Shown: positions 7,050-41,054 of the stretch, piece by piece | Layout of the letters: each line of letters opens with the position of its first letter | Position numbering within the stretch: position 1 is the stretch's first letter | Source of the DNA: Ruminococcus sp. | Lineage (GTDB): Bacteria; Bacillota; Clostridia; Oscillospirales; Ruminococcaceae | DNA length: 60,954 nt | Assembly: GCA_017542475.1 (NCBI GenBank) | Contig: JAFXXD010000036.1 | Coordinates: 1-60,954 of the forward strand | Reading direction: 5' to 3' | Notes under the pieces: model-generated | Seen by the model: the letters and a program-made list of their open reading frames with translations, nothing else | Databases searched by the model: none | Told to the model about the DNA's origin: nothing | Translations under genes and position numbers: made by a program

Positions 7050-7280
7050 TTTGTAGGGGCGGATATTATCCGCCCTTTTTTATTGCCAAACCCACCTGAA
7101 CCCACTGTAGGGGGCGATGTCCACATCGCCCCTCACTCAACAGGCGGGCTGATGTAGGCATCAGCCCCTACAGTTGGCAGCCGCAGGTTCGTGTGTTTGC
7201 GGGCGGCAGGACGCCGCCCCTACATAGTGCTTTGGGTAGTTTTTTGCGTTAAACGGACGCCCGATGGGCGTCCTTGCAAT
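7050..7280. repeat. Cluster of five CCCTACA-type stem-loops
   Basis: Five imperfect palindromes lie in 230 bases, at about 7052-7076, 7106-7133, 7143-7172, 7199-7225 and 7253-7278. Each has a GC-rich stem of 8-10 bp, most with a flanking GTAGGGG or CCCCTACA. Stem sequences differ between members (GGCGGAT, GGGCGATG, GGCTGATG, GGGCGGC, GGACGCCC) but pairing is kept. They belong to the dispersed REP-like family whose copies also lie inside the RAYT gene at 29.3-29.8 kb. Confidence 0.8.
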
Positions 7281-8918: not shown

Positions 8919-9302
8919 CGTTTTTCTCCTTTTTGTGATTTGAGATTTGCGGGACGTCGAGGACGCCGTCCCCTACAAGCGGTTTCAGGTGGTTTGGCGG
9001 TATATAGACGGACGCCCAATGGGCGTCCCTACAAATTGTGTCAGGCGGGGCGTCAGGTGAGGGGCGGGGCGATATTATGTGGTCGTTCAGTTAATGGCGG
9101 GCGGCGGGACGCCGCCCCTACACATTGCTACCCGCCGAAAGCAGACTACGCCGTTTGTACAGAGTGAGCGAGCTTGCGAGCGGGCTCGTAGTTAGGGGTT
9201 CGGGGTGACTCCCCACAGTGTGGGGAGATGTCGCGGAGCGACAGAGGGGACGGGCTGTTCAGCCGCCCCAGCGGGTCAAGGGCAGCGCCCTTGAAAAAAG
9301 AT
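8919..9302. repeat. Gene-free stretch with three CCCTACA stem-loops and a modular hairpin repeat
   Basis: Stem-loops of the CCCTACA family lie at about 8950-8978, 9008-9035 and 9098-9123. From 9131 the longer modular repeat follows: CCGCCGAAAGCAGACTACG, the AGTGAGCGAGCTTGCGAGCG module, several hairpins, and CAAGGGC-AGC-GCCCTTG at 9277-9293. It ends ten bases before the gltA promoter. No ORF here is credible. Confidence 0.75.
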
Positions 9303-12057: not shown

Positions 12058-12092
12058 TCCGCGGAACGCCGAGGACGGCGTTCCCTACATAG
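12056..12092. repeat. CCCTACA-type stem-loop between lipoprotein and response regulator
   Basis: GGAACGCCG-AGGA-CGGCGTTCC stem with a CCCTACA end. It fills most of the 63-base gap and overlaps the lipoprotein stop. It lacks a T-tract and so is not a typical terminator. Confidence 0.75.
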
Positions 12093-21319: not shown

Positions 21320-21376
21320 GCGGGCGGATAATATCCGCCCCTACTATACGGGACGCCGAGGGCGGCGCCCCCTACA
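21320..21376. repeat. Two CCCTACA-type stem-loops
   Basis: GGGCGGAT-AAT-ATCCGCCC followed by CTAC (21320-21345), and GGGACGCCG...GGCGGCGCCCCCTACAG (21349-21376). They are adjacent and in the same orientation. Confidence 0.75.
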
Positions 21377-28486: not shown

Positions 28487-28618
28487 GTGTAGGGGCTGAT
28501 GCCTACATCAGCCCGATATTAAGCTGAAGTTATGTCAATGGGGGGCGATGTGGGCATCGCCCCCTACATTTGGTTTAATGTGCTTTGTATGCGGGCGAGC
28601 GGAACTCGCCCCTACAAA
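28487..28618. repeat. Three CCCTACA-type stem-loops
   Basis: Copies at 28488-28514 (GTAGGGGCTGATG...CATCAGCCC), 28541-28569 (GGGGGCGATG...CATCGCCCCCTACAT) and 28591-28618 (GGGCGAGC-GGAA-CTCGCCCCTACA). The first is inverted relative to the other two. They end just before the T-box promoter. Confidence 0.8.
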
Positions 28619-28659: not shown

Positions 28660-28895
28660 ACATTAAAGCTACGACGAGGAAGGCTTTATCCGAAGCACTG
28701 CTTTCAGAGAGCTGCCGCACGGTGCGAGGCAGCAGCAGTATGGGTACGGCACACCGCCTCCGAGCTCGCCCAATAAGCGACGGGTGCTCCCGTTACAGAG
28801 CCAATGAGATACGGACATAGCTCCGTGTGAATCAGGGTGGAACCACGGTATTTTATCGTCCCTCGTGCCTATTTCAGGCGTGGGGGACTTTTTTG
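28660..28895 (+). promoter_or_regulatory. T-box leader, probably threonine-specific
   Basis: The leader has the stem-I core (GACGAGGAAGG, AGAGAGCTGCC...GGCAGC and a CCGAGCT element), the T-box AGGGTGGAACCACGG (28834-28848) and a strong terminator at 28858-28894 whose 5' side can pair with the T-box bulge region. The likely specifier is ACC at 28753-28755, just before GCCTCCGAGCT, which codes for threonine. Uncharged tRNA-Thr would favour antitermination. thrS fits as the target but lies 960 bases downstream, behind two other genes. Confidence 0.85.
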
Positions 28896-28921
28896 TCACC
28901 TTGCGCACAGGAGGTGAGAAA

Positions 28922-29302
28922 TTGAGCAATATCAGGTACAACGAGCAGGAGGAGGCGTTCGAGCTCCCGTATAAGCTGTGGGGCGAGACGCAGACCGTCC
29001 GCTTCTACGTCGAGAGCGAGAACGACATTATGCAGAACCTCAAAGCCGTCGCCGAGAAGCTGGCAAAGCTCGACGGCAGCCGCCGACAGATTGCAGAGCT
29101 CCTCATCGACGAGGGCTACTATGAGGGCGGCGACTCCGACGCTCTCGCGAAAAAACTCTCGCTCGGAAGCCCGTATGTGGACTTCGACGACGAGGATATA
29201 ATCCTCTGCTTCGATGTCAGCACCGATGACGGGTATATGCGCTCGCCCGCCCACGCCGAGCTCTTCGGCGATATGTTCGAGATAACGGGCTGGGTGGAAT
29301 GA
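28922..29302 (+). CDS. Uncharacterised acidic protein directly behind the T-box
   Basis: From the TTG at 28922, which has an AGGAGGTGAGAA site, this is a 126-residue soluble, acidic protein (LWGETQTVRFYVESENDIMQNLKAVAEKLAKLDGSRRQIAELLIDEGYY...). A mixed alpha/beta fold looks likely; no motif identifies a function. Codon use is like the housekeeping genes, unlike the RAYT behind it. It is the first gene after the T-box terminator and so under its control, yet it is not an obvious amino-acid gene. The RAYT gene starts 1 base after its stop. Confidence 0.65.
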   Translation: MSNIRYNEQEEAFELPYKLWGETQTVRFYVESENDIMQNLKAVAEKLAKLDGSRRQIAELLIDEGYYEGGDSDALAKKLSLGSPYVDFDDEDIILCFDVSTDDGYMRSPAHAELFGDMFEITGWVE

Positions 29303-29303
29303 T

Positions 29304-29852
29304 ATGGATAACCCGACACGTAAGGATATCCGCCTCGACGGATATGATTATTCCTGCAGCGGTGCGTATTTCATCACGATTTGTACGAACAAACGGCAAC
29401 ACTACTTTTGGAATTACAGCAAACCTGTAGGGGGCGATGCCCACATCGCCCCGCCCTCAGACTGCATTAATGATATTTCAACAGCTTTGCCATACGAATT
29501 GACTGAAATCGGGCTTGTTGTCAAGAAATACATTTCGAGTATGGCAGGAATAATCAAATATGTAATTATGCCAAATCACGTGCATATTCTTCTGGTTATC
29601 GAAAATGAATCAGGGGCTGAAGACGGGGCGATGTGGGCATCGCCCCCTACACAGCCGCTTTATCAAAGGATCCGTTCTTTGAAGGTTCTTGTAACCAAAG
29701 AATTGGGCTTTTCGCCGTGGCAAAGGAATTATTATGACCGAATAGTACGGAATGACAAGGAATACCGTGCGTATTGGCAATACATCGAAAACAATCCCAC
29801 AAATTGGGAAAATGACGAATATTTCAGCGAAAATAATTCAAAGGAGAGATAA
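29304..29852 (+). CDS. REP-associated tyrosine transposase (RAYT, Y1/IS200-like)
   Basis: A 182-residue single-strand nuclease of the IS200/TnpA_REP family. It starts RKDIRLDGYDYSCSGAYFITICTNKRQHYF. The HUH metal site is MPNHVHILLVI near residue 92. The probable catalytic tyrosine is in NYYDRIVRNDKEYRAYWQYIENNPTNW near the C-terminus. The gene is AT-rich except for two GC-rich in-frame inserts (KPVGGDAHIAPPS and GAMWASPPTQP), which are copies of the CCCTACA stem-loop family in inverted orientation. The end of the gene (SKER stop) supplies the AAGGAGAG ribosome site of thrS. RAYTs are thought to mobilise REP sequences; activity here is inferred. Confidence 0.85.
   Translation: MDNPTRKDIRLDGYDYSCSGAYFITICTNKRQHYFWNYSKPVGGDAHIAPPSDCINDISTALPYELTEIGLVVKKYISSMAGIIKYVIMPNHVHILLVIENESGAEDGAMWASPPTQPLYQRIRSLKVLVTKELGFSPWQRNYYDRIVRNDKEYRAYWQYIENNPTNWENDEYFSENNSKER
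29426..29453. repeat. REP-like stem-loop inside the RAYT gene (copy 1)
   Basis: GTAGGGGGCGATGCCCACATCGCCCC, an imperfect palindrome of the CCCTACA family, read in frame as VGGDAHIAP. It is inverted relative to copy 2 about 200 bases downstream. Confidence 0.85.
29624..29652. repeat. REP-like stem-loop inside the RAYT gene (copy 2)
   Basis: GGGGCGATG-TGG-GCATCGCCCC followed by CTACA, read in frame as GAMWASPPT. With copy 1 it forms an inverted pair. Confidence 0.85.
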
Positions 29853-29854
29853 TA

Positions 29855-31795
29855 ATGATAAAAATAACATTAAAGGACGGCAGCGTCCGCGAAATTGAAT
29901 CGGCACAGCCTGCGTCCGAGATAATCAAGGGCATTGGCATGGGTCTTTACAAGGCGGCTTGCTGCGTGAAGGTCAACGGCGAGGTCAGGGATCTCCGCAC
30001 CGTAATCGACAGCGACTGTGAGTTCGAGGTCTGTACGTTTGATACCCTCGACGGCAAGAAGACCTTCTGGCATACGGCTTCACACATTATGGCTCAGGCT
30101 GTAAAGAGGCTCTATCCCGCGGCGAAGCTCGCTATCGGTCCCGCTATCGAGAACGGCTTCTACTACGACTTCGACCTCGAGAAGCCCTTCACTCCCGAGG
30201 AGCTCGAGAAGATAGAGGCTGAGATGAAGAACATCGTCAAGGAGGGTATCGCCCTTGAGCAGTTCGAGCTCGCGCCCGCTGACGCTATCGCTAAGCTCAA
30301 GGAAATGGACGAGCCTTACAAGGTCGAGCTCTGCGAGGAGCACGCCGACAAGGGCGAGCCTATCTCGTTCTACAAGCAGGGCGAGTTCACCGACCTCTGC
30401 GCAGGTCCTCACCTTATGGACACCTCACCCGTAAAGGCATTCAAGCTCCTTTCGTGCACGGGTGCTTACTGGCGCGGCAACGAGAACAACAAGATGCTCA
30501 GCCGTGTATACGCTATCGCCTTCCCGAAGGCTTCACAGCTTGACGAGTACCTCAAAATGATAGAGGAGGCAAAGCTCCGCGACCACAAGAAGCTCGGCAA
30601 GGAGCTCGCTCTCTTTATGTTCGACCACACTGCCCCCGGTATGCCCTACTGGCTCCCGAGAGGCTGGAAGCTCTTCAACGCCCTGCTCGAATACTGGAGA
30701 GGTGTTCACGAGGAGCACGGCTACACCGAGATTTCGGGTCCTGTGCTCTCCAAGAAGGAGCTGTGGGTGACTTCGGGTCACTGGGACCACTATCAGGACG
30801 GTATGTTCGTTATCCCCGCCGAGGAGGACAACGAGGTATACTGCGCAAAGCCGATGAACTGTCCCAACGCTATCAAGGTATATATGAACAAGCAGCGCTC
30901 GTACAAGGAGCTCCCGCTGAAATTCAATCAGGTAGACGTTATCCACCGCAAGGAGAAGTCGGGCGAGCTCAACGGTCTGTTCCGCGTTCAGCAGTTCAGA
31001 CAGGACGATGCTCATATCCTCGTTACAGAGGAGCAGATAGCCTCCGAGATAAACGACATTATGGAGATAGCTACCGAGATGTACAACGTGTTCGGTCTCG
31101 AATACAAGGCGGAGCTCTCGACACGCCCCGACGACTTTATGGGCGATATCAAGGTATGGGACAAGGCTGAGGCTGACCTCAAGGCTATCCTCGAGGAGAA
31201 GTACGGTCCCGACGGCTACGAGCTCAACGAGGGCGACGGCGCCTTCTACGGTCCGAAGATAGACCTCAAGATGAAGGACGCTATCGGCAGAGAGTGGCAG
31301 ATGGGCACTATCCAGCTCGACTTCCAGCTCCCGCTCAACTTCAAGATGAAGTACATCGCCTCCGACGGCTCCGAAAAGCAGCCCGTTATGATACACCGCG
31401 CTATATTCGGCTCGTTCGAGCGCTTCATCGGTATCATCACCGAGAACTTCAAGGGCGCGTTCCCGTTCTGGCTCTCGCCTATGCAGGTAGGTATCGTGCC
31501 TATCCGCACCGAGCACAACGACTATGCAAAGAAGGTCGCTGACCTCCTCAAGAAGAACCGCATCAGGGCAGAGGTGGACTACACCGACGACAATATGAAG
31601 AACAAGATCAAGAAGTTCAAGGACTTCAAGGATCCCTATGTTGTCATCATCGGCGACAGCGAAGCCGCAAACGAGCAGGTGTCCATCAACATCAGGGGCA
31701 ACAAGCAGCTCAAGAACGTGCCGCTCGACAAGTTCATCGAGATGTGCCGCACTATGAACGAGGAGCACTCGCTTGACGTCATAGACACGCTGTAA
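29855..31795 (+). CDS. thrS: Threonyl-tRNA synthetase
   Basis: The enzyme charges tRNA-Thr. The 646-residue protein has, in order: the TGS domain (1-62), the editing/SAD domain (HTASHIMAQAVKRL and CAGPHL, about 70-240), the class II core with the zinc ligand region CAKPMNCPNAIKVY and FRVQQFRQDDAHIL, and the C-terminal anticodon-binding domain (QVGIVPIRTEHNDYAKKVADLL). All usual parts are present. The ATG at 29855 has an AAGGAGAG site lying inside the last codons of the RAYT gene. Transcription probably comes from the threonine T-box leader about 1 kb upstream; I see no separate promoter. Confidence 0.97.
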   Translation: MIKITLKDGSVREIESAQPASEIIKGIGMGLYKAACCVKVNGEVRDLRTVIDSDCEFEVCTFDTLDGKKTFWHTASHIMAQAVKRLYPAAKLAIGPAIENGFYYDFDLEKPFTPEELEKIEAEMKNIVKEGIALEQFELAPADAIAKLKEMDEPYKVELCEEHADKGEPISFYKQGEFTDLCAGPHLMDTSPVKAFKLLSCTGAYWRGNENNKMLSRVYAIAFPKASQLDEYLKMIEEAKLRDHKKLGKELALFMFDHTAPGMPYWLPRGWKLFNALLEYWRGVHEEHGYTEISGPVLSKKELWVTSGHWDHYQDGMFVIPAEEDNEVYCAKPMNCPNAIKVYMNKQRSYKELPLKFNQVDVIHRKEKSGELNGLFRVQQFRQDDAHILVTEEQIASEINDIMEIATEMYNVFGLEYKAELSTRPDDFMGDIKVWDKAEADLKAILEEKYGPDGYELNEGDGAFYGPKIDLKMKDAIGREWQMGTIQLDFQLPLNFKMKYIASDGSEKQPVMIHRAIFGSFERFIGIITENFKGAFPFWLSPMQVGIVPIRTEHNDYAKKVADLLKKNRIRAEVDYTDDNMKNKIKKFKDFKDPYVVIIGDSEAANEQVSINIRGNKQLKNVPLDKFIEMCRTMNEEHSLDVIDTL

Positions 31796-40981: not shown

Positions 40982-41054
40982 TGTAGGGGCGGATGCCCAC
41001 ATCCGCCCGTATTATATGCGATTATGCGGGGCGATGTAGGCATCGCCCCCTACA
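40982..41054. repeat. Two CCCTACA-type stem-loops in inverted orientation
   Basis: GTAGGGGCGGATG...CATCCGCCC (40982-41010) and GGGGCGATG-TAG-GCATCGCCCCCTACAC (41026-41054). They form a head-to-head pair like the two copies inside the RAYT gene. Confidence 0.8.

Follow-up and report, generated by a model that had tools for sequence, protein, structure and literature searches.

What two inverted copies of a REP hairpin are doing inside the reading frame of a transposase gene, where they are translated, is the question raised by the locus described here. The window, which is the whole stretch of 60,954 nt analyzed from Ruminococcus sp. (contig JAFXXD010000036.1 of assembly GCA_017542475.1), contains such a gene, a RAYT, and its intragenic segments are plausibly the substrate of the encoded transposase, judging from the sequence. 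We put at about 0.6 the probability that these segments are the cognate REP hairpins of the transposase, which selection on DNA would hold in the ORF as an inverted pair with like ends, for self-recognition or feedback.

The RAYT Gene and Its Locus

The features of the locus are listed in Table 1. The NCBIfam model REP_Tyr_transpos matched the window protein with an E value of 1.9e-11 and 44.1 bits, which is below its cut-off of 80, Pfam gave no match to the protein at E 1e-3, and a profile of 54 relatives matched Escherichia coli TnpAREP (4ER8) with an E value of 2e-13. The HUH motif of the window RAYT is PNHVH (residues 90-94), which fits the NH[IFV]H of subclass 2.4, and the WQ preceding the Y motif (W139 and Q140) as well as the Y motif YIxNNP itself (YIENNP, residues 160-165) are also present. 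A preliminary description of this DNA had located the catalytic tyrosine in NYYDRIV; residue 160 is the more likely candidate, as YIENNP is the Y motif of the subclass.

The RAYT ORF starts one base past the stop of orf145 and ends just 5' of an ORF which we take to be thrS, encoding threonyl-tRNA synthetase. Thus orf145 and RAYT sit between a T-box leader and thrS (28662-29855) and, because of this placement, RAYT may share tRNA-sensing transcription control.

The two in-frame stem-loop inserts, their inverted relation and their translation into the peptides given in Table 1, all of which had been claimed for this gene, were borne out. Each insert is an exact copy of the 26-nt REP GTAGGGGGCGATGCCCACATCGCCCC, with GTAG outermost, and the two copies, whose ends are identical, are separated by a spacer of 172 nt that contains the coding sequence for the HUH motif. 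Site 2 follows the HUH strand, and seven positions there are absent from 4ER8 in a profile alignment; on the same sequence-level footing, site 2 corresponds to the variable REP-bearing insertion between beta3 and alphaC that is a trait of subclass 2.4. The earlier observation is therefore real, and its interpretation is supported in part.

Table 1. Position and evidence of the RAYT gene, its neighbours, its two intragenic REPs and the three free REP pairs of the window.
Feature	Position	Strand	Basis
Free REP of window family, 1 mismatch, head-head with 7146-7171	7107..7132	+	hairpin scan
Free REP, partner end CTGATG	7146..7171	-	hairpin scan
Free REP, unlike partner end CTGATG of head-head pair	28489..28514	+	hairpin scan of window
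Free REP identical to intragenic copies, nearest to gene, about 0.74 kb upstream	28542..28567	-	hairpin scan
T-box leader, upstream of RAYT	28662..28866	+	90.5 bits, narrowly missing the gathering score of 93
orf145, function unassigned, directly 5' of RAYT, conserved neighbour of RAYT locus	28865..29302	+	ORF and homologue loci
RAYT (TnpAREP-like HUH/Y1 transposase), 182 aa	29304..29852	+	ORF call, NCBIfam, profile match
Intragenic REP site 1, GTAG at 5' end, read VGGDAHIAP	29427..29452	+	exact 26-mer match
Intragenic REP site 2, inverted exact copy, read GAMWASPPT	29625..29650	-	exact 26-mer match
ORF directly 3' of RAYT (presumably thrS)	29855..31795	+	ORF call and homologue loci
Free REP, partner end CGGATG	40983..41008	+	hairpin scan
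Free REP of window family, 1 mismatch	41028..41053	-	hairpin scan

REP Hairpins in the Window and Its Genome

Five sites within three mismatches of the 26-mer are present in the window, while 100 dinucleotide shuffles gave none. A search of the whole genome (2.66 Mb in 57 contigs, 94% complete) for the hairpin core, allowing up to two mismatches, gave 39 places, against 0 for the reversed control. Gaps of 13, 26 and 19 nt separate the members of the three free pairs in the window, and their ends are unlike. REPs located less than 1000 nt from the gene, another trait of subclass 2.4, are represented by the pair at 28489-28567, and the scan detected none nearer.

The genome of the window also possesses a second RAYT (G000:C4:52591-53094), which is 41% identical to the first and carries inside it a pair of another type, GGGACGGCG, counted at 76 places in this genome. 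In longer hairpins such as those of the GGGACGGCG type, the seventh pair is repeatedly a G-A mismatch (11 of 36 distinct site-1 hairpins), which recalls the irregular stems of other REPs. As well, five REP hairpins belonging to four other families were found in the same window (7053-7075, 9010-9032, 9099-9121, 12063-12088 and 21322-21344), and the intragenic pairs seen in RAYTs elsewhere in the genus include three of these four families, as though the hairpins had been deposited by RAYTs that were present earlier or have been lost.

Homologue Survey

Homologues were collected by protein searches, which gave matches in 19 of 60 relatives and in 53 of 125 genomes of the genus, and by a profile of 15 homologues, which matched in 95 of 394 genomes of the order and was also run against named genome contigs, where 80 places were kept of at least 420 confirmed. 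The sets of 60, 125 and 394 genomes overlap, and 171 distinct full-length homologues were taken by hmmsearch.

The inverted pair, whose two copies lie on either side of the HUH motif with GTAG outermost, was recognized in 145 of the 171 homologues, partly by similarity between the sites (at least 13 of 22 matches), and the intragenic REPs are accordingly no peculiarity of the window gene, as they had been taken to be. Nor did the comparison find the two segments of the window gene as conserved core sequence, a result that would have spoken against regarding them as inserts; other hairpin families occupy the same two places. Examples of the hairpin types are the window type GGGCGATG as well as GGGACGGCG and GGGCGGATA, and the variation among genes is wide, amounting to 83 distinct 18-mers. 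Orientation was right in 103 and wrong in 2 cases at site 1, and right in 107 and wrong in 2 at site 2, among 140 genes. Since 26 of the 171 homologues have no recognized pair, the pair is dispensable in places; nine of these 26 hold one or two hairpins inside the gene, and another nine lack hairpins both inside it and within 400 nt of it. Another arrangement is present in L205, where both hairpins lie inside the gene after the HUH motif.

Concerted Change of the Two Copies

Where the two sites were found independently of each other (both in 95 of 140 genes), identity within a gene was 0.944 over 18 nt versus 0.512 between genes, and the best of 2000 partner shuffles reached 0.58. In all 140 genes, without picking, the median score was 24 within genes and 10 between genes. 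The within-gene score was the row maximum (ties allowed) in only 56 of the 140 genes, as would be expected if close relatives share a hairpin type. Identity within a gene stayed at 0.92-0.98 at every level of protein divergence, in genes picked partly by that similarity, whereas same-site identity between genes was 0.90 in the 166 pairs with 65-80% protein identity and dropped to 0.48 in the 5685 pairs with 35-45%; among gene pairs less than 45% identical, only one of 6077 shares both hairpins. Moreover, hairpin type tracks protein clades in a quick tree of 72 rows. The joint change of the two copies from lineage to lineage points to a working DNA site rather than to a chance insertion.

The borders of this identity are REP-sized, with values of 0.77-1.00 from GTAG to +23, 0.48-0.63 at +24 to +26, and 0.14-0.32 at +27 to +33, the flanks being at about 0.26-0.29. 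Wide gene conversion between the sites is excluded, as identity is at background within a few bases of the REP. Chance similarity of the copies is excluded as well, both by the shuffled windows (0/100) and by the shuffled partners (maximum 0.58). In L184, the site-2 loop is flipped relative to site 1 (CCGAGGGCGG versus CCGCCCTCGG), as if the hairpin had been turned over.

Constraint on the Nucleic Acid

At 65-80% protein identity, the hairpins are 0.87-0.95 identical and fourfold third positions 0.39-0.46, and in five thrS-linked genes, which are 63-84% alike, 26 of 26 nt are kept at both sites. Across genes, the stems covary, with every stem position staying paired through the use of several pair types. 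Stem pairs differing between the two sites of one gene were changed on both sides in 28 cases and on one side in 18. Counted without a filter, 29 of 54 differing stem pairs are Watson-Crick at both sites and 25 are not in one site; counted only in genes with at least six of seven pairs at both sites, 27 of 39 are still paired and 12 are not. As 29 of the 54 differing pairs stay paired, the local hairpin is often, but not always, kept despite broken site-to-site complementarity.

At the peptide level, V42-G43 and P115 of the window protein, which are encoded by the REP ends, are invariant or nearly so in two alignments, V-G and P-T are nearly invariant among the homologues, and the frames are common to most genes, another reading frame of the element being used at site 1 in 3 of 145 genes and at site 2 in 16 of 145. 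With frames so widely shared, the peptide may play some part. Because stems covary, adjacent fourfold sites are far more diverged and some clades shift frame, selection would appear to act chiefly on DNA or RNA.

Hairpin Types at the thrS Locus

The pair-bearing genes adjoining thrS number 26 and hold eight stem types, and orf145 was also matched in the locus for 22 of them. Since a single locus has eight types, which follow the protein clades, both copies seem to have changed jointly in genes that stayed put. Among RAYT-free genomes, orf145 is present in 5 of 12 searched; the orf145 and thrS matches are 30-42 nt apart in four RAYT-free loci (L247-L250), and a further one (L246) has 69 nt with a RAYT-like beginning. 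Shortened RAYT remnants were also detected at the thrS locus in other genomes of the genus (L204, L211, L215 and L218-L221), and in two of them, L204 and L211, the break points lie, by eye, in or beside an intragenic REP.

REPs inside and outside the Gene

Genes with 400 nt available on both sides (22 of the 26 without and 140 of the 145 with a recognized pair) were used to compare REPs inside and outside. REPs on both outer sides within 400 nt were found for 7 of the 22 genes without a recognized pair versus 1 of the 140 with one (Fisher 2.5e-6), and any outer REP for 10 of 22 versus 19 of 140, nine of these being of the gene's own type. Intermediate layouts also occur, for instance in L115 and L132, which have one REP inside and one outside, while L210, a sister of L205, has the same hairpin type outside the gene. 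A lower hairpin threshold, which is noisier, gave both inside in 146, both outside in 9, one outside and one inside in 3, and other layouts in 13 of the 171. The alternation between inside and outside argues against gene movement as the purpose of the REPs beside RAYT genes.

The intragenic copies had also been likened to a BIME pair, which holds for their orientation but not for their spacing or ends. Among the close pairs in the DNA examined, head-head (GTAG outside) is the most frequent layout (41/91). Outside RAYT genes, the members of same-family head-head pairs are separated by 2-52 nt (median gap 20), and their 7-nt arms are identical in 2 of 34 and unlike in 32 of 34, whereas the intragenic pairs of RAYTs are about 150 nt apart and have identical arms in 109 of 145; the window pair, with its longer spacer and identical ends, is of the latter kind. 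When ends were compared loosely, over 7 nt, all of 32 free pairs had one or both ends of a type seen in RAYT genes, and 21 had exactly one. The free head-head pairs of the genus (L004-L017, L226-L245 and those of the window) mostly combine unlike ends with compensated stems, such as GGGCGATG with GGCTGATG. Insertion of a single free REP pair into the gene was considered and is excluded, as the HUH coding sequence lies between the copies and their ends are alike.

REP Families across Genomes

Counts of four hairpin families (T1-T4) cover all 125 genomes of the genus. The two copies within the RAYT gene itself are part of these counts, and RAYT types were assigned only for genes seen in assemblies that are partly incomplete. 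Genomes with a RAYT of the family (n = 5, 13, 10 and 11) have medians of 16, 23, 35.5 and 54 places for the four families, versus 2, 0, 10 and 11 in the other RAYT genomes (rank tests 0.0027, 2.7e-5, 0.0033 and 3.3e-5), and the median is 0 for each family in the 72 genomes in which no RAYT was found. In 38 of the 39 cases of genomes whose RAYT bears the family, the REPs exceed the gene's own two copies, the exception being G114, which has a T3 RAYT and only the two places of the gene. In the flanks, the own hairpin occurs at 0.49 copies per locus versus 0.016 for other types (16 of 53 named loci), a count in which the two RAYTs of L099 count each other.

The match between RAYT and REPs is looser in abundance, as the RAYT's own type outnumbers each of the other three in 24 of 39 cases. 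The genome of the window has 24 T1, 8 T2, 76 T3 and 49 T4 places, and T1, the type of the window RAYT, is outnumbered by T3 and T4. Several genomes are rich in T1 with no T1 RAYT found (G133 with 52 places, G064 with 50, G017 with 43 and G108 with 34), and G110 has 63 T3 places without a RAYT of that type; no RAYT was found in G108 or G110. A strand bias of REPs along G035, hinted at by the places listed there, is given no weight.

Possible Roles of the Intragenic Pair

Other tnpAREP genes are flanked by REPs ("REPtrons"), and the intragenic pair may correspond, within the ORF, to these flanking REPs. Its hairpin is presumably recognized by the encoded protein, and, if the specificity of this protein drifted, both intragenic copies and the dispersed genomic REPs would drift along, so that every gene would bear a current copy of its own target, one per strand. 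With one copy per strand, the target would be offered to the gene's own product on either strand. Moving the whole gene by means of these ends is unlikely, because only the middle piece of the ORF lies between them, and the likeliest use of the pair would be to let the encoded protein recognize its own gene or transcript, as feedback or self-limitation.

Other explanations have to be weighed against self-recognition. In the printed reading for subclass 2.4, the REPs would be tolerated as harmless passengers in flexible loops. The description of the beta3-alphaC insertion as a peripheral extension (available text of PMC6006769) and the occurrence of REPs inside other genes of other bacteria (available text of PMC3733652) are in keeping with it, but passengers would not be expected to sit on either side of the HUH motif in 145 of 171 genes, with a single orientation and like ends, and hairpin DNA conserved far beyond adjacent fourfold sites, in two copies that evolve together, speaks against mere tolerance loops, as proposed earlier; we regard this explanation as highly improbable. 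A role at the protein level, in which the REP-encoded segments help to recognize the REP, could account for the common frames and the nearly invariant V-G and P-T, yet the peptides vary widely between clades, some of which use another frame, and the hairpin DNA is conserved beyond synonymous positions, which makes such a role very unlikely. Regulation through the mRNA, whose two sites would pair with each other or fold locally to control translation or stability, is suggested by a predicted RNA fold that pairs both sites (z -8.9 versus shuffles). This is rather unlikely to be the explanation, given that 29 of 54 stem pairs keep both local hairpins where the sites differ and site-to-site pairing is broken, that GUAG is shown on the mRNA by site 1 only, and that pairless genes more often have outer REPs, which are not necessarily in the mRNA.

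The two remaining alternatives concern the traffic between gene and genome. Neutral homogenization, by which the enzyme or recombination overwrites the intragenic REPs with each other or with genomic REPs and no function is needed, would produce the sharp, REP-sized borders of identity, and the flipped site-2 loop of L184 is expected of exchange at the level of the hairpin. The intragenic REPs are not simply drawn from free pairs, however, given the rarity of identical 7-nt arms in the latter (2/34 versus 109/145), and the loop is CCCA at all ten T1 sites of five genes but CCTA in 11 of the 14 copies listed outside the gene in G032, and so we consider this course of events unlikely. That the pair serves as a seed or master copy, by which a transferred RAYT gene brings its own REPs and the genomic population is rebuilt from the pair, would agree with the REP family extending beyond the gene's own two copies in all but one case; the free pairs combine unlike ends and do not resemble direct copies of the intragenic pair, and the common locus of the thrS-linked genes suggests vertical inheritance, so that this seems improbable.

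Recognition of the pair by its own product could take the form of a built-in brake, in which abundant transposase would bind or nick its own gene or transcript at the intragenic REPs, and its dose would be set by the hairpin that it spreads; this is a tentative idea, which may well prove wrong. If it were true, the REPs flanking other tnpAREP genes would be regulatory sites rather than transposon ends, and substrate and enzyme would co-evolve as both are written in one reading frame. The pair thus bears on how RAYT and REPs stay matched and on what the REPs around RAYT genes do. Furthermore, if the intragenic hairpin is the current target of the enzyme, many natural enzyme-substrate pairs would be legible from sequence, and specificity would be predictable clade by clade.

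Comparison with Known Systems

REPs inside tnpAREP genes are already known. According to the available text of PMC6006769 (Quentin et al. 2018), genes of subclass 2.4 (Bertels group 4) carry in-frame REPs, generally between HuH and Y; the REP insertion was called a unique, predominant feature of the subclass and was suggested to have little effect on activity, and an 8-residue insertion at the end of alphaB is listed among the traits. The window RAYT is similar to subclass 2.4 TnpAREP in its motifs NHVH, WQ and YIENNP and in its in-frame REPs. The second site before HuH, the inverted, like-ended pair with its concerted change, the DNA-level constraint and the exchange between inside and outside are not mentioned in that text, although part of this may show in its Figure S10, and no further paper on intragenic RAYT REP pairs was recognized in the open-licence literature.

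As to other systems, the available text of PMC8266576 reports that E. coli TnpAREP recognizes single-stranded REP but does not recognize inverted REP, and makes the case that TnpAREP and its REPs co-evolve. The REPtrons of E. coli and Stenotrophomonas described there resemble the window gene in associating cognate inverted GTAG REPs with an HUH/Y1 gene; their REPs flank the gene, whereas the hairpin scan found none within 400 nt outside the window RAYT, whose REPs are translated parts of the gene. REPINs or BIMEs likewise consist of two inverted REPs, but free same-family pairs are short-spaced and mostly have unlike arms, and the intragenic pair of the window, with its 172-nt spacer and identical ends, does not resemble the closely spaced free pairs in its own genome. 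Finally, the Rickettsia palindromic elements mentioned in the available text of PMC3733652, which also gives the head-head terminology, are similar to the window REPs in being palindromic repeats translated in frame, but that text reports them from various genes and not as a pair within the gene of their own enzyme.
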